Both the position numbers and the translations under genes were made by a program. Under the pieces are notes generated by a model. It ran no database searches. It was not told the DNA's origin and saw only the letters and a program-made list of their open reading frames with translations. A stretch of 64,000 nt of DNA, from assembly GCA_027405735.1 (NCBI GenBank), contig JAPEHQ010000009.1:1116001-1180000 (forward strand). Direction: 5' to 3'. Source of the stretch: Mucor racemosus (taxonomy: Eukaryota; Mucoromycota; Mucoromycetes; Mucorales; Mucoraceae). Below, one piece after another: positions 4,981 through 40,987 of the stretch. Numbering within the stretch: the first letter of the stretch is position 1; every line of letters begins with the position of its first letter.

Positions 4981-6386
4981 GATGAAATAATAATATGTTT
5001 AGTATAGAGAAAATAAATGTGTTTTAGGGTTGATATAGATATATAAAGAAATCTTGTTTGTTCTTTATATGAGGAGAATTCGTGTAAATGAATAAAATTT
5101 TAGGAAAGGATTTGGCTCTTCTTTTTAACTTTTAAAAAACGATGTAATTGATGCTGCTCTATGCTGTCTTTCTGTTCGAATATTCGATTCCAAATCAATG
5201 ACATGTACAAGTTTATACAACTTTTTTTTTAACAGAAGAGGGTTTTTTTTTAAAAAATGGAAGAAGGGTTTTCTTTTTCTTTTTAAAAAAAAGTTTAGGA
5301 TGTTGGAAGAAGAAGAGTAAATACTGCGGCTAAATACGTATTTGAATTTATTTTTTTCCCTTCAAATTGTGACTAGATAAAAGCCTTTTGAAAGGGCACC
5401 TACTATGAGTACTTTTATCGTTCGCAAGACATCGAACTACCCAATCAAAAAGACATCTCGTTTGAACATTTCGTCTATGCGGATCAACTGTTTATCCATT
5501 TTCAGTTTAAATAGAGCATTATCTAATAGTCAGTATATATGATACAAGTAGTAGCATATTTTAGACTTATTCCAATGTAAAGAAATGGCAAGCAATTGGA
5601 AAATATCCTGCCTTTTTTTGCTGCCAAGTCTGTTGACATAAAAAATCTGAGATCAGATTGAGTCCATCTGAAGAATATTTAGACCACTTTAAATGATTTT
5701 AAAGTACTTTCAGCTACAAATAAATGATTCTATACACGTCTATTTTACTTGAGTATTTTTTGTTTTGTAAAAATATGTTGAATAGACATAATTTTAGCCT
5801 TTAATTCGAAGGATGTAGCATGGATTTTTAGTATTTGCAAATGGTTGAAAAATTAAACAGCCGCCCTGAAATTTCGTATCCATTTTAACGAAACAAACAA
5901 CTGTATTGTTCAGGTCATGCTAAACAACTACTGAATTTAAGGGTGAGTTCTGTAACAGATATAATCAGAATGTAACTCACACGTACCTCACTTGCTATAA
6001 TTTGATTATGCACATTTTATCACTCCAAGTTGAATATTGTCCTCAGTTTTGACATTTGGAATGTATATATAGACTATTTGAAAGCCATTTGATGGTCAAG
6101 TTTTCGATGGTCTAGAATGAATAATCAAGTAAATACATGGTTTTTTTTTTCAATTGACATGTTGTGCGACCCTTTTAAAAAGTTCAAATTTGTTTAATTA
6201 GCATTTAAATCACGCAAAGTTACGACATGTATAAATTGAAATAAGAAAGCGGAGAGTTCTTGTATGAAATTTGTTTCAGGAAGCAATTTTTGGTGCCTTT
6301 TTTTAGGTTTAATAAATTAATTGTTATTTTGGTATCACTTCTTTCTCTCTTCTTTTTACTCTTTCTACTTTTTTTTTATAAAAAAA
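4981..6386. other. Divergent intergenic region between eIF5 and the Sel1-repeat gene
   Basis: This 1.4 kb separates two divergently transcribed genes and should contain both promoters. It is AT-rich, with several A and T runs. No reading frame with support and no copy of the repeats found elsewhere in the window was seen. Confidence 0.6.
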
Positions 6387-9300
6387 ATGGGTAGCTCTAC
6401 AAGCAAAGATGAATCAACTAGCAATATCATTGTTGATTTATATGCTTCAGAAACAACCAATCAATTATTAAAGACACATTTGACAAATCAAAGAATTTCA
6501 GATGTTCTGAAACATCCAACATCGACAATTTCTTCCACTATGTCAACTGCTTCAATTACCATGTCAAATACAGATGAACATAAGCTATACGCTAGTCTTG
6601 TCAATCGCCATTCTATTCCTACACGCGTTTGGGTGGCACAATGTAAAATATATGGCTTTGGCACTCAGAAGGATGTAACCGAAGGATTCCGAGAATTAGA
6701 ACAATTACGAGACCATAAAGAAGCCTTTTATCCATTAGCATGTTATTACTATGACCAACAAGATTTTTTGAATGCATATCAATTTTTCCGTAAGCTTCGA
6801 AAAGACAATCATTTCGCCCAATATAGATTAGCGTTAATGCTATTTCATGGACAAGGCGTTTCTACCAATCATCAAAAAGCGTTTCAATATATGAAATTAG
6901 CAGCAAACAATGGTAATAAATATGCTCAATTTATTATGGGTTTTTATTATGAATACGGTATACTTGTCAGACAATCAGCTCAAACATCAAGGATGTGGTA
7001 CGAAAGATCTGCAAATCAAGGATTTGCGGAGGCCCAAACTGCAATTGCTAATTTATTGATTAATCAAACTGATCTGGGCGTTGATGGGAAGTTTATTGAA
7101 TCATCTAATGAGAATCAATTAATAAAAGATCAAGCATTAAATTGGTTATTTAAAGCAACAAATCAAGTAAGAATAACATGTTTTTATTACCAAGAAGTTG
7201 CTAACAATAAAGAAAAAAAAAAAAAAAAAAAAAGGAAAATGCAAGTGCATTGATTCTCTTAGGTGCTTTGCATGAAGAAGGCACATTAGTGGAAAAAGAT
7301 GATAATAAAACCATAGAATATTATACAAGAGCAACAAATGCTCCAATTTCTTCTACTTCAATTTTATCACTTGCACATTATTTAGTTGGCATAAATTATA
7401 GACTAGGTGGCCTTGGCCTTGAACAAGATTTTGCATTAGCATTAGAGCATTTGACATTATCTGCAGATGCAGGATATGCTCCCGCTCAACGTGCCTTGGG
7501 TCTAATGTATGCAGAAGGTATCGGAACGCCTAAAGATAACATCAAAGCCAACATTTTGTTTGAAAAGGCAGCAAATCAAGGTGATATACGATCTTTAGGT
7601 CTCATGGCAAACCAACAGCACCATCAGCAACCAAATAATTTAGCATCTGCAATTTCACTTTATGAAAAAGCAGCAAAAGATGGATCTCTTGCAGCACAAA
7701 TTTCACTTGCAGGATTATTACAACGTACCGGAAAGCATGCTTTAGCTTTCAAATGGTTTGAAACAGCATCCAAAAATGCGCCTACCGCTAATAGCAAACA
7801 TCAGAAAATTTCTATTTTGGATTTCAGTGTAGGTTTTGTGTCTCAACGCAATTTGGCTCGACTCATGGTTGCACGATATCGGTACAATGGCTGGGGTAGC
7901 GTCAAACAAGATCGATTGTGGGCCTTTGAGGAGTTTAGAGCCTTATCTGCTAATGGCTATTCCGATGCGCACTATTGGTTGGCTGCTTGTTATGAAGAGG
8001 GCGTTCAGGAATTACAGAAGTCTGATGTTCATCAATGGATTGCCAAACCTAATTTAGACCTTGCATTTGAGCTATACACAAAAGCTGCAGAAGCCGGCGA
8101 CATGGATGGTCAATTCCAAGTAGCTTATATGTTATCAAATGGTATAGGTGTACCTAAAAATGTAAATGCAGCATTTTCATGGTATATCAAATCTGCTGAG
8201 CAGGGTCATAAAACAGCACAATATAGTTTAGGCATGTATTATGAAAATGGATTAGGTATTCCGGTGAATCTTGAAAAGGCGAAACAGTGGTACGAATTGG
8301 CAGTTGAAGAATTACCTATGGCAATGGTGAGATTAGCAAAGGTATTAATTAGTTTGGGTAACGGTACTACAGCGATAAACGAGGCTACTGATTGGTTGAA
8401 TAAAGCAATTGAGAATGGAGATGTGCCTGCATTACGTGAATTAGCAACAATGTATAAAAACGGTTTAATTAATCTTGAATCATCAGCAACTACAACATTG
8501 GAAAAATATAGAATCGCATTTAACTATTTTCAACAAGCAGCAGATAAAGGTGATGCACTTTCTTGGCATGCTCTATCTAAATTTTATGAAGGCTATTATG
8601 ATACAGAAGATGAAATTATTGTACCTAGAAGTTTTGGGAAGGCTGTCATGTGTCTAAAAAAGGCTGAGGATTTAGGCTATGCACCGTGAGTTCTTTGTGT
8701 CTATAAATTCAGGTATTAGCTACTGATTCATTTTACATATTAGTGCCATTCTCGATTTAGCAGATCTTTATTATAGAAACGCCAAAATAGATGAAGCCAT
8801 GTTGATTTTTTCTGAATTAGCAACATCTGAACACGCTCAATCATTTATTGTCAAAAAAGCACGCATTGAAGCTGCTAAAATTGTTGTATTTGAAAATTAT
8901 GGAAATGAACAAAATCAAATTAAAGTACATTCGTGGTTGATGAATATTATCAAACAAGAAAATATTAAACATTTGGGCGAGCTCTGTGAAGTATACGAAC
9001 TGTTAGGTTATTGCGCTGAAAACGGTATTGGCACAAAAGTAAACAAAAATGATGCCATCTTATTTTATATCGACTGTGCAAATGAAGAAGAGCAAGATCA
9101 GCACCAACGACATAAACATTGGGCAAAACAGAGATCTTTATGTAGATTAGTGTACACGCGCATGGAAGAAAAAGATTATCAGTCTGCATTCATGTATTTA
9201 CAAATGTTACAACCTAGTCTTGAAGTAATGGGTCAATTACCATCTGCAGATGCAACTACACAAACTCGTCGTATGAAGTACTTTTTTAGTTATTTATATA

Positions 9301-11264
9301 TGTATGGCCTAGGCATTGAAAAGGATACTCACAAAGGCTTGAATTGGTTAACAGAGGCTGCTGATGAAGGAGAGGCTGATGCCGCTTTTGAAATTGGTAT
9401 GTATTTGACAAGGCAACAAAAGGATAAATTTGAACAAGAAATACGTAAACGATTTCAACAAGGTGCGTTGGCCGGACATCCAGCTTGTATGCGAGAATTA
9501 GCATTCCTTCTGCTTGCTGATGAGATGGATAAATCTGTTTTGGATGAAGATTACGATGGTGGTGCTGAAATTTTAGGTCTTTTGCAAACAGCAAGTCAAC
9601 TAGGAGATGTTAAAGCTACATATCAGTTGGGTCAAGCATATGAGAATGGTTTAGGAGACGTAATTCCAGAAAAAGATATAGAAAAGGCACTTGAATGCTA
9701 TATTGATGCTGCTGGAAACTTACATGAGGAGGCTATGCTAAAAGTAGGTGACATCCTGGGTAACATGATGGGCCGTCATGAAGAGGCTATTGAATGGTTC
9801 CAAAAAGCTGTAAATGAGTTTGACAACATCAAGGCGAAAGTGATGTTGGTTTCCTATAGCTTCCAAGGGATGTCAGTAAGCAGCAGAGAACAATTAGAAA
9901 AAGAGCCCCATGCAGCCGATATAAGGAATTTCGAACATCTTCAAAAAATAGTCGATAAAAATGTTAATTCGATGAAAAACGATACAGAATCAACATCGAC
10001 TGTCGAGGAACAAGAAGCACAGCTAAAATCAAAAAGAAATGGCCTCGGTTTAGCATTTTATATTCTTGGCCAATGTTATGAACTTGGAAGAGGCACCTCA
10101 ATCAATTTACCCATAGCTAAAGAATGGTATAATCGCTCTGTTCTTATCTCTGAGCATGTCGATGCCATGTGGCGATTAGGTGTTATTTATAGTGAACTGG
10201 AAGACAATGATGCCAGTGCGCTTGAATGGTTTCGTAATGCAGTTGAGAAGGGGAAACATTGTGAATCTCATTATCAATTGGGTGTTTTTCACTTACATGG
10301 TTTAGCTGGTTTACAAGTAAATATTGCTGTTGCAAAGAAGCATTTCTCTAAGGCTGCAGAGCAAGGACATCCCATGGCAACTTATGAGCTAGGGCGGATT
10401 GTATGGCATAAAGATGCTGATTATTTATATGGCCATGAGCTTTTTAAAGTAGCTGCTCAGCAATTACATGTTCCTGGAGCTTTAAGAGAGCTAGGTAATT
10501 TATCACATACAGGCTTTGCTGTGCATGGTATCGAAATGTGTGAACAAGATCGCAAAGCAGCATTTGCATATTATTGTGAGGCTGCTCAAATGGGGGATCC
10601 AATTGCTGCACTTATGGTAGGCAACTACTTTGAAGAAGGGTTTTTAAAAGAAGACTTGGGACAAGATAATGAACGAGCACTGCAATGGTATGAATCAGCG
10701 TATCGATTAAACTGTGGTGGTTTATCAGAATTGGCTATTGGTAAATTAAAACACACTATTGCTGATACAATTGAAGATTCAAGGGAAGCAGATGATATGA
10801 GAGAAGAGGCATTCGTTTGGTTTGAAAGTGCATCAAATAATCTGCCTGATGGCCTTAATTTCACTGCTCGAATTATGATTGCTCTCTACTACTTGAATGG
10901 ATGGGGACGTAAAACGCAAGATACAGAAACAGGGCTTGAAATGCTGCTGAAAATAGTTGAATTGGGTGGTTGTGAAGCCATTATACCTGTTGCCCAATGC
11001 TATGAGGAAGGCATTGGTACTGAATACGACATGAATAAAGCATTAAAATATTGGAAAATGGCAGCAGATATGAATGATCCTCAAGCATTAGAAAGATTGG
11101 GTGATTTTTATGCACTGGGTTTAACTGGTGAAATCGACAAATCTTTAGCCAGTCAGTATTACAATCAAGCCAAGACGTTGATAGAAAATCATTACAATAG
11201 ACGACACAGTGGATATTCTTTTGAATCATTCACTTCATCATTATCATCATCAACTAGAAATTAA
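6387..11264 (+). CDS. Giant Sel1-like repeat protein with a predicted N-myristoylation start
   Basis: Three exons (6387-7166, 7235-8685, 8744-11264) encode 1,583 residues. Introns are 7167-7234 and 8686-8743; both junctions restore frame across a Sel1 repeat. I chose the ATG at 6387 because it gives MGSSTSKDE, a strong fit to the N-myristoylation pattern (Gly2, Ser6), directly after a T/A-rich leader; the upstream in-frame residues are hydrophobic junk. From about residue 70 to the end it is an almost unbroken array of roughly thirty Sel1-like repeats of the form A-x2-LG-x2-Y-x2-G-x-G-x4-(D/N)-x2-KA-x2-(W/Y)-(Y/F)-x2-AA-x2-G. Sel1 repeats form superhelical scaffolds; in fungi they occur in chitin synthase activators (Chs4/Skt5) and Hrd3. 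No catalytic domain or membrane segment is visible. I infer a membrane-anchored scaffold; the partner is unknown. Intron 1 has an unusual acceptor preceded by about 20 A residues. Confidence 0.9.
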
Positions 11265-33611: not shown

Positions 33612-35015
33612 TTATTTCCCAACTTTTGCAGCAGAATTGATGGCAGTTCTTCTACAGTTACCCCATTGAGATTTGAGGTCACCGATCCAAGACAAGATAA
33701 TATCAAGACGATCTTCTAAAGTATCAGTTTTCAATAGATGATATCTATCTGTATTACTAACAGGCAATACAACAGCAGCCCACCAACACATGGCAACAGC
33801 ATTATCAGCAGGAGGTAAAGAACCATGGAGTCCTTGAACAGATTCTAACCAAACAGGACCCAAGAGGCCTTCGATGGCACTACAGAATGCAGTCGAAGGA
33901 GTAGAATGAGCTAAATCGCTGACAAAATCATGAATTCTGTTTGATAGTTTCATTTCTGGAGTGTAAATGAAAGGCTTGGTAGGTGAGGATGTAGATGAAG
34001 TTGAAATTGTACTCATAATATCTTCCATGGGGCTATCTGGGGAAGGAGGTAAACCAGTATTGTGTTGTTTTGATTGTTTCTCAAATGCTCCTTGTCGATG
34101 ATCAGTCCAATGGCTGTTTGAAGCCGATAATAGATCGTGAACATCTTCAAATTTCATTATCAAATCAGCTTGTATAAAGTCAACAGTTTCTTTTGATACA
34201 CTTGTAATTTGAAAGCGATCCAATCCAACGACATCAATAACAAGATCATTGCTTCTTTGTTCAACAGCATTGATTTTGACCATAGTACCAAAGCGACCCT
34301 TGTGGTTTGCTTTATCTTTACTCAAGATACCAAAGCAAAGTGATTGGTATTCTTTACAGAGTAATAAAGAATCGATGAAAAAAGTGCGATGATGTTCAGA
34401 GTAGATTGGAATACGAAGTTTTTGAGAAGGTAATACAGGGAATTCAGTGAGATAAATAGGAATATTTTGATAAACAATTGAAGATGATAGTGGGTTGAAT
34501 GAAATAGACATGTTGCTGATACAATTAGCAGTAGAGATATTATTCAATTGAGGTGATTGATGTTGATTGTATGCAGATAGAATCTCTTGTAAAATGAAAT
34601 TAGGGGGTTGATGTTGAATGAATTGATAGCTGGGCAATCTCTTTTGACACTTTTTGCATGAATCATTGGAGATTTTGTATTGCAACACACATAATTTACA
34701 GAAACTATGTCCACAATGAGAAGTTATAGGATGTTCTAACAAATGATTACCAATGGAGCATTGCAATGATTCAGTAATTTCTTTAGAATCAAATTGATTC
34801 AATTTGACGATTTGACTGATACAATTATCCAAATATAAATCGGGTCCAAATAAATGTGTTTTCTTGTTACATTGCTTGACAGGACAGACAAATGTTGATC
34901 TTTGGAATTCTTCTTCAGATGGTAAACAAGTCAGGCAAACGGTAAAACCACAAGATAAGGTAACAGGATCTACTAATTGATTTTGACAGACTGAACAATT
35001 CAATACAAGAGACAT
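33612..35015 (-). CDS. LONRF-type RING finger and LON substrate-binding domain protein
   Basis: A single exon encodes 467 residues. Two RING-like modules come first: residues 7-49 (CSVC...CGFTVCLTC, with the usual His replaced) and about 85-125 (CSIG...CGHSFCKLC...CKKCQKRL). A linker follows, and from about 185 a LON-type substrate-binding domain begins (TEFPVLPSQKLRIPIYSEHH, then SLCFGILSKD, RFGTMVKINAVE and DVVGLDRFQI), with a helical C-terminal part. No protease domain is present. This is the architecture of the LONRF family, thought to act as E3 ubiquitin ligases in protein quality control. The start at 35015 begins directly with the first RING module. It lies 622 bp downstream of the Fanzor stop on the same strand. 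Confidence 0.9.
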   Translation of the reverse strand: MSLVLNCSVCQNQLVDPVTLSCGFTVCLTCLPSEEEFQRSTFVCPVKQCNKKTHLFGPDLYLDNCISQIVKLNQFDSKEITESLQCSIGNHLLEHPITSHCGHSFCKLCVLQYKISNDSCKKCQKRLPSYQFIQHQPPNFILQEILSAYNQHQSPQLNNISTANCISNMSISFNPLSSSIVYQNIPIYLTEFPVLPSQKLRIPIYSEHHRTFFIDSLLLCKEYQSLCFGILSKDKANHKGRFGTMVKINAVEQRSNDLVIDVVGLDRFQITSVSKETVDFIQADLIMKFEDVHDLLSASNSHWTDHRQGAFEKQSKQHNTGLPPSPDSPMEDIMSTISTSSTSSPTKPFIYTPEMKLSNRIHDFVSDLAHSTPSTAFCSAIEGLLGPVWLESVQGLHGSLPPADNAVAMCWWAAVVLPVSNTDRYHLLKTDTLEDRLDIILSWIGDLKSQWGNCRRTAINSAAKVGK

Positions 35016-35637
35016 TTTGTAGAGTAAATAAAAGAGAAGATAGATGAATGAAATAATATGATTTTTTTTTGTTTCAAAATGGAGTTTCTATTTAAGCTCG
35101 ATTTCATTTAGTAGATTTTCATCAAGATCTGAAAAGCTACTACTGAACTTCGATTCTCAGTTCTATCAAATTTTATGTCCATATTCGTTGATCTATAATA
35201 GGTAATAATCTTGATATCACTAGATAATAATCCCTTATTTTTCAACAGATATTATACACAAATCGACATGTTTATCTCTCCCCTACAACGATTTCTATAA
35301 CAATGCAACCAACAAGAAGCCCCCCCCCCCAGATATTCTACATCTTCCCCTATTTTAAATATTTATAAATCTTCGATATTAAATTATTAAGCACATTTTA
35401 TGATTGGCTACGAATAGGATTTAGTTTACAAAATATGCTGTGTAGCATTCACGGCATCGTATAATATACTGAGAGGGTATAGCAAGCTAAGTAGTTCAAA
35501 AAGGAAAGAGAGATTTGATTAGTTGACTGGGTAACAAATGTAGAAGGATTTTACTTACCAAAGGTGAATTTGAATTTAGAAGATTAAAGAATGAATTGAT
35601 TTAGTATTGAGTTATGTCTAATGAATATAAACTTACC
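35016..35637 (-). other. Non-coding region 3' of the Fanzor gene and 5' of the LONRF gene
   Basis: This 622 bp contains the LONRF promoter and, if the Fanzor follows other loci of its family, the place where its guide RNA (omega-RNA) would be encoded. Immediately after the Fanzor TGA the minus strand shows GAG|GTAAGT, a strong splice donor, and a second GGTAAGT at about 35555. A run of 11 C lies near 35325. I found no terminal inverted repeat matching the other side of the gene and no obvious long hairpin. Confidence 0.4.
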
Positions 35638-38600
35638 TCAAAGAGCCGAAGCTCTCGTCGTACTACCCCCAACGGAGGGCCAGCTTGTCTGCTGTTTTCT
35701 ATCCGAAAATACCAGAGCTAATTGAGAAAACATTGCTTGTTTCGCTGTTGTGTTTTTTGGATCAAAGCAAGGAAAGGTGTAACCAAGCATAAGCTGAGCA
35801 GCACCAGCGAGGCCAATCGCTAATGCAGAAAGACAATCCCTGCTCATGACGACAGACTTATTTGGGCAGGCATCGTTCAAACAAATGAATGACCCATTAG
35901 TCTTCTTGACTGTACCATCTTTTGCAGTATACGGATGTGATAATTTGCTGAAACACCAAAGGCAGGTCTGAGAACTGTTGTGTTCATTAGTAATCAATGT
36001 AGGCGTATATCGAGAATGTCTCAGTTCTTTCCAATATCCACCAAATCGCAAATGTCCTTTAATAGGAGACCTGATTGCATGCCCACGATCTCCAATAAAC
36101 ATAATAGGGGACGATGATTTCGTAAATTTTCGTTCCTTTGATGCAAGTCTATCATAAAATCGATTTTTCGTTAATTCTAATCGTCTTTTTTTATTAGCAG
36201 TCGATCTTGAAAAGTAAAATTGACGAATACATGACTTTGCTTGAGAATGGCGAGTGAATGTTGCATCCAGTTCATCAATTGTACCACATTGCTGTATACT
36301 GGACTCAGAAAGATCGCTTTCAAGATCAGCAACATTTTGACCTAAGACTGTGAGGCGCTTTCTTCTATTGAGCGAAGACGAAAAAGAAGCAAGACCACTA
36401 TGTTGGCGGAGGGCGGCACTCCTTACCTTGAATGATGTGGGCAATTTCTTCAACTGAGCGTCTTCTTTCTCTTCCATATAAGCGTCTTCTAAAATTTGTG
36501 CATTGAAAATTAGCCACAAGCAAGATATCAACGAGCATTAAATTACCTTGATCTTGTAATACTTGAAAGCGATTGTACAAACGAAGATGATATTTCAACC
36601 TATCGACACCAAAAGCAACTGTCTCCGTGACATTAATAATACCGTTGTCTGTCCCTGAAAATACAAGTTGGTCTTTATCTACTTTTTGATCAATAATACA
36701 CTCCTCCACCTTGTGATGGCAAGGTTTGTTGGGCTCGACTGGTATTATCTGTCTTCTTTCAGTAGAGGAGGTAGCGTCATATCTCTGCTTGTAGATGTTA
36801 TTATTGGCACTGGACAGTTCTTGCTTTGCTTTCACTACTTCTTGAATCAATTGTCTCTTCTTTTTCTTGGCCACTTGTATCTCTTTATGCAGCGAGTCTC
36901 TATCTATATTTTCATCATTCCATTTTTTTTTCAGTTGAGAAGCACTTTCTGAACCAAGTAGATATTTATTAAGTGTAATTTGAGCGTCCTTCAACCTTTT
37001 CTCTATTGTGGTCTTCTGGTCAATCAATGCTGCAATTCTGCTGTTGATCTCATTGCTTCTTGTGGATGTCTGAGTCACAGGAGGTTGCTGTTTATTCTTC
37101 TGTTTATACTTTTGGTAATTTCTAGTACCAAGGATTCTCACACACTGAAGTCCAGGTAGTACATGCATACGGTAGGCGAATTGCAACCCGTAGCCAGCAC
37201 ATATTGTCTTTAGACGATCTATGTCGAAAAAACTACTAAACACAGCATCCTTTTGAGACGTAACTGAAGCCGCACGAATGACATTCCCTTCGAAATCATG
37301 GAGTACCATCTTATGTTCCAGCTTTCGAGCACAAAACAAAGAATGTAATGTAGTAGCATCAATCCATAACGCGTGCAGATTTGTAGGCCTGATGATGGGG
37401 GTCAATTTCACCACTTGCTCATGGTAACCAACAGAACGCAATACTTGATTAACCATCAAGAGAAAGGGAATTTGATGTGAAAAGACATGGTATGTGGCTC
37501 TAGATGCCATGTATGGCTTTACAAATTTAATAATCTTCAAGATGACCTCCACTTCTTTGTCGCTAATGTTGCTCAATTTACCAACAAAATATGCTTTGCA
37601 AATTGTTTTTTCCTCAAAAAGAGCTGCTCTTGTTATCTGCTTTAACTGGTTTATTCTTTTTCGCGAGGTGTCCTCTTCTACCAAAATATCTTCCATGTCA
37701 ACATCTTGAATCTCTTCTTCTACCAACGCTTCTTGCATTTTGATACCTTGCTCTTCTTCTTGTTGACGTTGCTGCTCTCGTCTCACCTGCCGCTTTTGTT
37801 TCTAGAAGAAGGTTGTTTAATATACTTGTTCAATTCGATTGTTCATCAATCTTACCTCTCTTTGCAAAACATCTGCATATGAGTTCAGCCTTTGCTGACA
37901 CAAGCTAGCTTTCCATTGCTTAACAACCCAATCTCCTCCTTTCTCGATACAACGATTTCTTCTTTTAATCTCGTCAGCGAAAAGCCTTCTGCGTCCATTA
38001 TAAGTTTTGTTGATGAGTGACATCGAGTTTACTGGAATGGCACAATTGTTGTTAGGAGGCTGTCTATTCTTTCCTTTATTCTTTCCTTTGAGCTCCTCGC
38101 GTTTTTTCTTGAATTCTTGATCACGAGCAGGAGATAAATGGACAATCAATAGAATATTCAAGAGCCTGTTCAATGCTTTGTTTACGATTGTATTATCTGC
38201 CCACATATTCATGAAATTGGCGATATAAACATTTCTTGCCATTTTCATAACGTGAGACGACAAATCATTGTAAACATTCTCCTCATCACGCCCAAGTAAA
38301 TTTACTATTGCTTTATGAAGTCGTGCCGTATTCAGGGTGGATTTGCTAATTCCTTTTGATCCAAAATAAGTTGAATGGATTTGATCAAAGTGAGCCTCTT
38401 GGAATAATGCATTGTACTCTTCTTTCAGGCTATCAGTCTGCAGGAATTGACAATTTAAGGGCTTAGGAACAATCACATCCTCGTGTAGATATCCTACTGG
38501 TAACACTGGATTGATACTTTGTCCCTCTTGGTGCACTAATTGAATATTGCCGCTATTTGTGATAAATTGATTGTCTTTGAAAAGCAGCAACATTTTCATT

Positions 38601-39250
38601 ACTTGCTTGCTGAAATCAGCCAAGTAATCTGAAGCTTGTTCAATGGTTTTATTGATAGTACCAATGAATGTTGATCGACAATTTTGTGGGAAATCCTTTC
38701 GAATAACTGATTAGAAGGATGCAGAGCAAGTTCTATGTGTTACGTCGTCTTCTACTTCATTATCATCTATTTCTTCCGGTTCTTCTTCACCTACTTCTTC
38801 TTGCTCTTCAACGCCTTCTTGAGCTGCAGTGGATTCTTCTTGTATCGTTACTGAATCTTTGAGGGATTCAAAATTTTCTTTTACATAGTCTTTCCAATGT
38901 TCAATGCTTTTCTTTTTTGTTGTTCTTGTTACACGATTTAGATACACTACAATTGAATTTACTGGTGCATTGATGCTCTGTTCAGCGCTCGAGACCACAC
39001 CTCTTGGAAGTTGTTTTAACTGCATCAATGTTTTGTATAAATCATTGAAAGACTCGTTTTCATCATGGCATGTTTTGATATGCTTTATGATTCTATGTCT
39101 AAATTGAGTTTTCAATGAGTTCATATAAGCTTCATCATCATCAGTTGTTGCTCTTCTACGACTAGTTGTTTGTGTTTCCAAAGTTGCTGGTAAATTTCTC
39201 CTTGTAGTGCCAGGAACGTATATATTTAATTGTTTTCTTTTTATGTGCAT
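35638..39250 (-). CDS. Fanzor (eukaryotic TnpB/OrfB-like RNA-guided nuclease)
   Basis: Exons on the minus strand are 38744-39250, 37856-38695, 36547-37801 and 35638-36488, giving about 1,150 residues. The C-terminal half has the TnpB/OrfB layout. A RuvC-I-like segment LVFSGTDNGIINV has Asp at about 834, and GDRGHAIRSPIKG lies at about 1000 where TnpB has RuvC-II. Then come NEHNSSQTC (Glu at about 1036), zinc-ribbon pairs C1043/C1046 and C1070/C1075, and RuvC-III SRDCLSALAIG (Asp at about 1085). The Glu beside the zinc ribbon, not in RuvC-II, is the rearranged site known for Fanzors. A basic Q/E-rich part and a coiled coil (exon 36547-37801) precede RuvC-I. Introns 37802-37855 and 36489-36546 are clear. 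A TAA at 38711-38713 is in frame unless the 48-bp intron 38696-38743 is real. The start is uncertain; 39250 is the first ATG in the open exon with plausible sequence. Family proteins cut DNA with a guide RNA; activity here is inference. Confidence 0.85.
38696..38743 (-). other. Proposed 48-bp intron removing an in-frame stop in the Fanzor gene
   Basis: The open frames 38744-39292 and 37817-38709 are in the same phase, separated by one TAA at 38711-38713. A candidate intron has donor GTAACA, a CTAAT branch-like site, and acceptor CGAAAG|GAT. Its length of 48 is a multiple of three, so frame is kept. The alternative is a single nonsense mutation in an otherwise intact gene. The donor is weak and the length is at the low end for this genome. 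Confidence 0.45.
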
Positions 39251-39475
39251 TGAGATGTTATTACAATAGACAAAGAAGAAAAGAAAGATCAAATGCTGTC
39301 GATGCTAATACATTCAATGTTGGCCAACAGCGGGGTTTCCTCGCTCACGCTGTGGGGCCAAATCAATCCAAATGATTTATTTGGTTTTGCAGAATGTCAA
39401 GTTCGCAAGTTGTTAAAAAAGGTTAATTGCAGATATATGAACTTCTTTGTTGTTTTGATATTATACGGTACATAC

Positions 39476-39637
39476 CCTAGTAAAAATTTTAGTATAAGGT
39501 ACAAACGTTGGGTGGTTTTGATCTACAGCATTCATGAGAACATGTTGGTTTTCGATTTCTGCTTCGATTTCTTCTTCATCTTCAACAATAAGATGTCTTT
39601 TACAAATATTATTCTCGGTAGGAGGTGGGGAGCTCAT
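39476..39637 (-). CDS. Possible 5' exon of the Fanzor gene
   Basis: A 54-codon frame starts MSSPPPTENNICKRHLIVED, is acidic, and ends at AGG|GTATGT, a good donor in phase 0. The composition suits an N-terminal exon of the gene below it. An acceptor at CGACAG|CAT (about 39295) would join it in phase, but would add an odd hydrophobic stretch. It could also be an independent small ORF. Confidence 0.35.
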
Positions 39638-40987
39638 GTTTTTTTTGTATAAAAATAATGCTTTAAGCAAAATATTGATGACAAGTATGTAGATTTTTAT
39701 TATTTATTATTTAGTAGTTAATATATTAGGTAAATCCACAGGAGAATCAAAAGATAGTTTTCTTTATTTATAGTGTTTTTAAGGGCTATTAATACAAATG
39801 AACCGAAGCAAACTACTGTGCGACTCTTATTGCCAACATGTCAAAGGTTTTTTCACAAGTCAAAACTTGTGAATACTACTACTGTCCTTGCATATTTTTC
39901 AGTATAAGCAACTCAAACCCAATATCTTCACCCTGAGACTCAACCAGACTCAAGGTATTTTTAATATTTTAAGCGGGTGACTCAAAAATACTTTTTAATT
40001 TTTCAATTTCACTGCTTAATTTCGAAGTCAGATCGAAAATACCTTGAGTCTGGTTGAGTCTCAGGGTGAAGATACTGTTAATTCTTTGATTATCAAGGTT
40101 TGTACTGTGAGATTGCATTCTGACTGCCATATTCCAGATGATTTGGTTTCTCAAAAACGATCGTGAGGAGCACCATATCCGTTGATGGCTGGAAATTTGC
40201 TGGTCCATGAAGTATGAAAAATCAATGATATTCCATATTTTCACATAGTTTGATGTGTAATGACATTGATATTTCTGTATTTGACCATGATATCGTATAA
40301 TTTAAATGAAAGGTATCATGAAAGGTTATTGCCTTAACAGAAATAATCATCCTTTTTTTTTTTTTTTTGGTTCTTTTATAATTAAGCTGAGATTTTCAAA
40401 AACTATAGAAAAAAATTCAATGAAGAGCTTTTCAAGAAATCATTATTAAAAACATAGAATAAAAATACTGGAATAAATTAAAGATGTTACTGACCATTAT
40501 GTGATTATAAAAGGATTAATTTGTAAGGTTGATGAATGAGCAAAAAACCTTTGATTTCATCATCTCGGTAGAATACTATTCATTCTGATTGAATATTATC
40601 ATGTTGAATTAATTTTGTAGCCAAAATAACATAACATAATATGATATAGCTTATACTGCAATATGATGAAGTATGTCTCATGCTTTTTATTTATAAAACA
40701 TACCATTATTTTCAGTACTTTACTACATACACATTAAAAATCTCCATATTGTGTAGTGCAACTATTTAAAACTCTACTGCTTGAATATTTGATACTACGA
40801 ACCTGTGTAATTCCTACTCATAATGATTTCATTGGGCTTCTGTTTAAGGCTATTTAGGGTTGTCCAACAATACCAACACATTTAGAATTGGTTATGAGCG
40901 GGTTGAGTGAAATAGCTGTTTTGGAATATTTGGAAAAAGTTTTAAATCTTCTTTACCCTTTTTAATGTGTATATATAAATAATAATA
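39638..40987. other. Intergenic region containing a MITE
   Basis: Apart from the 148-bp inverted-repeat element at 39925-40072, no gene is supported. The frame at 39969-40244 runs through the MITE arm and is spurious. A T run lies at about 40353. The last few hundred bases serve as promoter for the DUF218 gene. Confidence 0.6.
39923..40074. mobile_element. MITE of 148 bp with long inverted arms and TA duplication
   Basis: The element 39925-40072 begins TCTTCACCCTGAGACTCAAC and ends with its reverse complement. The arms pair almost perfectly for about 37 bp, leaving an AT-rich centre. TA flanks both ends (39923-39924 and 40073-40074), as for Tc1/mariner-type MITEs. It cannot code for protein. 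No second copy is seen in the window. Confidence 0.88.

Follow-up and report, generated by a model that had tools for sequence, protein, structure and literature searches.

The window analysed here, a 64,000-nucleotide stretch of Mucor racemosus DNA (contig JAPEHQ010000009.1, positions 1,116,001 to 1,180,000), carries on its minus strand a gene which we assign to the Fanzors, the eukaryotic homologues of TnpB, embedded in a transposon copy of 4614 bp. The limits of the gene given by the original prediction, 35638..39250, hold. Its four exons joined in frame are replaced by three exons separated by two predicted introns, and what had been taken for the first junction (38713-38711) is an in-frame TAA. 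The features of the locus are as follows:

35466..40079, minus strand: whole transposon copy, 4614 bp (5' end 40079, 3' end 35466), with boundaries common to copies that have unrelated flanks
40072..40077, minus strand: left terminal CAGTAT, preceded by AA
39920..40077, no strand: left-end palindrome, with 42-nt arms (40036-40077 and 39920-39961) and a 74-nt spacer
39952..40079, minus strand: left-end segment shared with a Crypton-bearing element, 128 bp, 99% identical to the left end of locus L029
37856..39250, minus strand: Fanzor exon 1, with ATG at 39250, interrupted by a stop
38711..38713, minus strand: premature TAA at codon 180, absent from all 19 other aligned copies
37802..37855, minus strand: predicted intron 1, GTAAG..TAG, 54 nt
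36547..37801, minus strand: Fanzor exon 2, with the RuvC-I region (FSGTDNGII) at its end
36489..36546, minus strand: predicted intron 2, GTAA..TAG, 58 nt
35638..36488, minus strand: Fanzor exon 3, with the alternative RuvC-II Glu, C4 zinc finger, RuvC-III Arg-Asp and stop
35466..35637, minus strand: 3' non-coding region, the place where an omega RNA would be expected
35466..35471, minus strand: right terminal CAGTAT; the expected guide would begin just past it

Both introns are probably spliced, because the frame stops within intron 1, retention of intron 2 shifts the frame, and both junctions are crossed without a break by L034, an intronless paralogue whose single open frame has 1196 aa. The spliced product of the intact copy L013 is 1166 aa long, and an open frame of 1166-1169 codons is found in 16 of the 20 copies read, those lacking it being the window copy, L016, L022 and L026. 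As the TAA places the RuvC parts of the window copy downstream of a premature stop, this copy is broken and should not make a full-length protein. An apparent loss of an intron in L033, which shows a merged frame of 720 aa, was rejected: the intron-2 stretch is still there and is read through in frame, with no spliced-out junction.

Copies, element ends and the link to Cryptons

A search of the same genome with the last exon recovered at least 91 matches. Family 1, that of the window copy, accounts for 22 matches at 97-100% identity and one degraded locus, or about 23 loci as a lower bound; family 2 accounts for at least 13 match rows at 49-51%, and there are further intronless frames at about 37% and weaker matches. 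Among these, 21 of the 23 family-1 and 4 of the 13 family-2 loci were read. What most family-1 copies have in common is the whole or almost the whole of 35466-40079, with nothing shared outside it; the left part is altered, shortened or broken in L010, L012, L015, L018, L022, L024 and L025. Two of the copies differ at only 4 of 4442 sites. The ratio of non-synonymous to synonymous polymorphism (pN/pS) is 0.29 over 20 copies, among them L033 but not L022, with 0.49 in codons 1-200, 0.16 in 201-465, 0.38 in 466-860 and 0.21 in 861-1166. The family has been recently mobile, and its mostly intact coding copies are under purifying selection; of the original suggestions, a recent origin holds for the family, and an active or domesticated window copy is not supported.

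Database searches recovered 17 relatives, all 14 with a named organism coming from Mucor or Rhizopus; no record among the 17 bears the name Fanzor, and one is called Up in starvation. About 8000 candidates were scored in each of these searches, so distant relatives can be missed. In a tree built from 18 rows, without P0002 and P0014, families 1 and 2 group with P0001, P0003, P0004 and P0005 with support of 100/99, the branching order inside this group being resolved only in part.

CAGTAT, or a sequence close to it, stands at both ends of the element: at the left end CGGTAT replaces it in L028 and L030, at the right end CAGTAA in L012 and L018 and TTAGTAT in L021, and L032 has CAGTAC. AA precedes the left core in 17 of 19 tabulated copies; at the right end T follows AGTA in 22 of 25 copies, and 21 of 25 have T as the third base. 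When left ends were compared with their own right flanks in the 24 of 25 copies with both ends readable, the sum of shared bases was 105 against a mean of 77 for shuffled flanks, and 0 of 20000 shuffles scored as high. The shared stretch is 4-5 nt in 17 of the 24 and 8-13 nt in the other 7; L033, with an odd left core, shows no match to its own right flank. This pattern fits an exchange at a short core, with bases of the target sometimes substituted for those of the element. Short terminal direct repeats are present, as in CryptonF elements, and no terminal inverted repeat joining both ends was found among the 25 of 38 repeat pairs listed. The joined flanks of 19 pairs (from 25 copies read) were searched in the same genome, and no empty site was found among the 40 of 123 candidates scored; two half matches were read, neither of them an empty site.

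The 74-nt spacer of the palindrome is inverted in three (L015, L023, L027) of the 19 copies in which it is nearly whole. L010, a family-1 copy, lacks the palindrome, and over 100 nt its left end matches that of the family-2 copy L032 at 89% identity. As L010 nests among palindrome-bearing copies (nearest fork support 75/78), ends may be exchanged between elements. A role of the hairpin as a microRNA was considered and rejected: the four Rfam microRNA matches to the palindrome are all below the gathering score (one with E 9.5e-7), and we take them to arise because a long palindrome fits such models.

Matches to the left end (24 candidates scored) all lie at family-1 or family-2 loci, except for one 63-bp fragment on contig C19. 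Composite elements at three family-2 loci (on C26, C13 and C12) begin with its first ~128 bp, which comprise the first arm, the spacer and the first bases of the second arm, most of the second arm being unshared. In L029 this left end is followed by a gene with NDC10_II and GCR1_C domains, then CAGTAT, and then a complete family-2 Fanzor unit; this unit also occurs without the Crypton gene, with CAGTA ends of its own (L032). All three composite recombinase copies are defective: L029 has lost two Arg that are present in L030 and L031 and that we take to be the catalytic ones of the R-H-R-Y tetrad, and the frames of L030 and L031 are shifted. A related recombinase group with 33-34% identity to L029 gives 40 matches in the genome, with no stop in the matched stretch. 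These 40 matches have very similar scores and include seven same-strand pairs with a spacing of 2.9 kb, an arrangement like that of tandem insertions at a single core; the contigs concerned are C2, C8, C13, C11, C1 (two) and C19. Published CryptonF elements combine a recombinase with GCR1_C, and in most of those from fungi the terminal direct repeats are 6 bp long (PMC3212892). The best reading of these features is that the window element is a non-autonomous Fanzor element mobilised by a Crypton.

In a rival reading some other mover, for instance a Helitron2-like or unknown transposase, is responsible and the shared left end was acquired by recombination. In its favour, the left end is a hairpin, the 8-13 nt shared in 7 of 24 copies could be target duplications of variable length in a minority of insertions, L010 has a different, hairpin-free left end, and the right end agrees with that of L029 over only ~16 nt, the agreement with L030 and L031 being shorter still. 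Fanzors are described together with Helitron2 elements that have hairpins at their ends and duplications of variable length (PMC3627910). Against it, most copies share 4-5 nt only, CAGTAT starts both types of left end, and the family-2 unit is bounded by CAGTA with or without the Crypton gene, the outcome to be expected if recombination takes place at a fixed core; we regard a different mover as unlikely, if a serious contender. The right end of the window copy is situated ~380 bp from the upstream end of an open frame encoding a RING finger and a LON substrate-binding domain (33615-35087, minus strand), so the insertion may sit in the promoter of that gene. Elsewhere in the window three reading frames with Sel1 repeats cluster at 6321-11261 on the plus strand.

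Assignment to the Fanzors

The zinc finger (CLWC/CLNDAC), SRDCLSALAIG, FSGTDNGII and NEHNSSQTC motifs, which the original prediction had recognised in TnpB order, are all recovered in that order. In L013 the Asp of TDNG is at position 850, the alternative Glu at 1052, CLWC at 1059, CLNDAC at 1086 and the RuvC-III Asp at 1101, and the spacings match the published Fanzor/TnpB motif (Asp to Ser-Ser, 204; Glu to first Cys, 6; last Cys to Arg-Asp, 8). The Fanzor1 pattern D-X(125,275)-[TS][TS]XX-C4 zinc finger-X(5,50)-RD is present in 15 of the 18 aligned family proteins, the exceptions being P0002 and P0014, which are cut short at the zinc finger, and P0010, in which the Thr/Ser position is changed; as 15 of 18 fit and TDNG is found in 18 of 18, the pattern is not the result of chance. 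Neither the RuvC-I Asp nor the alternative Glu varies in any of the 18 alignment rows, and Arg-Asp is present in the 16 that reach it. The Glu stands six residues before the zinc finger in 17 of 18 proteins (P0002 is cut short there), in agreement with the rearranged active site that had been proposed. The family departs from the usual pattern at two points: RuvC-I has DNG, not DPG, and the second zinc knuckle is CX4C where CX2C would be usual. Among Fanzors DPG is nearly exclusive, though not universal (PMC10711439), and in the active Fanzor SpuFz1 the metal is reportedly bound via E541, D383, N385 and D606 (PMC10432273); with both D383 and N385 in SpuFz1, we do not take DPG as a defining feature of Fanzor1.

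The profile search suggested as a check gave no clear hit: PF07282 scores 13.3 bits (E 0.095), below its cut-off of 26.3, and it matches 3 of the 18 family proteins with E 0.085 or worse. Sequence searches of Pfam, NCBIfam and PDB gave nothing above cut-off for the family (best E among other members 0.0053), the cut-offs in the 18-member domain scan being given for the first member only. Sequence-only proof having failed, the identity rests on a bridging gene and on fold comparison. A Fanzor-like gene of the same genome ties the family to PF07282 (E 7e-4 for this bridge gene), and the seven best matches to the structural model of a relative are all Fanzor structures, with ~390-430 residues matched; other parts of the model were barely tested, so that the absence of other families there says nothing, and the block covering the RuvC catalytic core has a pLDDT (predicted local distance difference test) of 23-41. 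Together these results support the identification of the window gene as a Fanzor.

Other Fanzor-like genes, L037 and L038 (C11:325800-328300 and C19:91900-94300), comprise canonical exons, one of which passes PF07282, and the bridge gene. The canonical exon of L037 matches the family profile with an hhalign probability of only 3.8 and the bridge gene with E 5e-4 in a single BLASTP comparison. By our reading the bridge gene itself has GIGPG at the place expected for the RuvC-I Asp.

The unusual RuvC-I motif and the widened zinc finger could alternatively mean that these proteins are no longer nucleases and merely help transposition by binding DNA or RNA, all 18 proteins departing from a motif near exclusive in Fanzors. 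Yet the catalytic Asp and Glu never vary, Arg-Asp is retained wherever the protein reaches it, and the SpuFz1 ligands indicate that residues after the Asp vary; loss of nuclease activity is in our estimate distinctly improbable. That the window copy is a single active or domesticated host gene, as originally suggested on the strength of a reading frame continuous but for the stop and of its catalytic residues, is scarcely credible, being refuted by a stop that every other aligned copy lacks (unless this is an assembly error) and by the ~23 dispersed loci with shared ends.

Proposed mechanism and comparison with known systems

We consider it probable that a large Fanzor1 is the cargo of a recently mobile transposon, of which the window holds a defective copy, and that the element operates as follows. 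A Crypton-type tyrosine recombinase supplied in trans would excise the element and insert it at an AGTAT core. The Fanzor would bind an RNA from the right end, with flanking host sequence as guide, and cut the element-free site, using the core (about AACAGTA) as target-adjacent motif (TAM); repair from the element-bearing copy would then keep or spread the element. Proteins made from other copies could still move the window copy and receive guide RNA from it. The proposals on guide and TAM rest on analogy with TnpB and characterised Fanzors (PMC10432273, PMC10711439), among which SpuFz1 has the TAM CATA (PMC10432273), and they predict a TAM at or within AACAGTA.

The tests of constraint, fold and Rfam matches gave no positive sign of an omega RNA from the right end. 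The 3' region varies at 23 of its 172 sites and four-fold positions at 47 of 429 (Fisher p 0.40), which is no significant constraint, and the fold z-score of the 3' region is -0.02, no better than shuffles (-1.35 for the 3' region of family 2). Pairwise diversity is 0.017 there and 0.031 in the left non-coding part, a difference which counts of variable sites do not separate (p 0.72).

More tentatively, it is possible, though we would not yet call it probable, that there exists a Mucorales lineage of very large DNG Fanzors, missed by standard profiles and carried as exchangeable cassettes on a CryptonF core which is also their TAM. Were this true, a recombinase and an RNA-guided nuclease would read one short sequence. 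The group is nearly twice the usual Fanzor size, has another RuvC-I motif and lies below the Pfam zinc-ribbon cut-off, and may for the latter two reasons be missing from Fanzor surveys based on profiles or patterns. As many intact and very similar copies are present, a genome-wide reading of the guide (right flank), the core and the insertion site is feasible, and the question of what Fanzors do for their transposons becomes testable in one fungus: do nuclease and recombinase use the same core?

The association of Fanzor1 with Cryptons is already in print. A 2013 paper (PMC3627910) described Fanzor1s from Mucor, Rhizopus and Phycomyces, among them a multicopy Mucor family that contains partial Crypton sequence, and Crypton recombinases are listed as Fanzor1 partners (PMC10711439). 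Possibly new are the DNG lineage of ~1100-1200 aa and the predicted TAM in the recombinase core; we met no description of a DNG-type or 1100-residue group in the excerpts of the Fanzor literature searched, which is weak evidence of absence.

Among known systems, the characterised Fanzor1 proteins SpuFz1, GtFz1 and PpFz1 resemble the window family in fold, in the Glu six residues before the zinc finger, in the order Asp-...-[TS][TS]XX-C4-RD and in being transposon-borne. Unlike them, the family has DNG, a CX4C knuckle and sub-threshold Pfam scores, and its length of 1166 aa (P0001, 1114; L034, 1196) contrasts with 600-700 in most Fanzor1s (PMC11423790). MCi-2 of Bao and Jurka (2013) is likewise a multicopy Mucor Fanzor element with a conserved 3' part and varying 5' ends, and one of its subfamilies has a partial Crypton gene (PMC3627910); compared by description only, it differs in its reported 11-12 bp duplications of the pattern ATAATTNNNN(N), as against CAGTAT cores here. 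CryptonF elements share the short terminal direct repeats, with no terminal inverted repeats seen, and the sister element has their recombinase and GCR1_C, whereas the window element has no recombinase gene and adds a Fanzor gene and a left-end palindrome. Finally, in IS607 TnpB and pro-Fanzor elements a nuclease gene is similarly carried on an element inserted at a short core by a site-specific recombinase (PMC10711439); that recombinase is of the serine and not the tyrosine type, and the window family is eukaryotic and intron-bearing.
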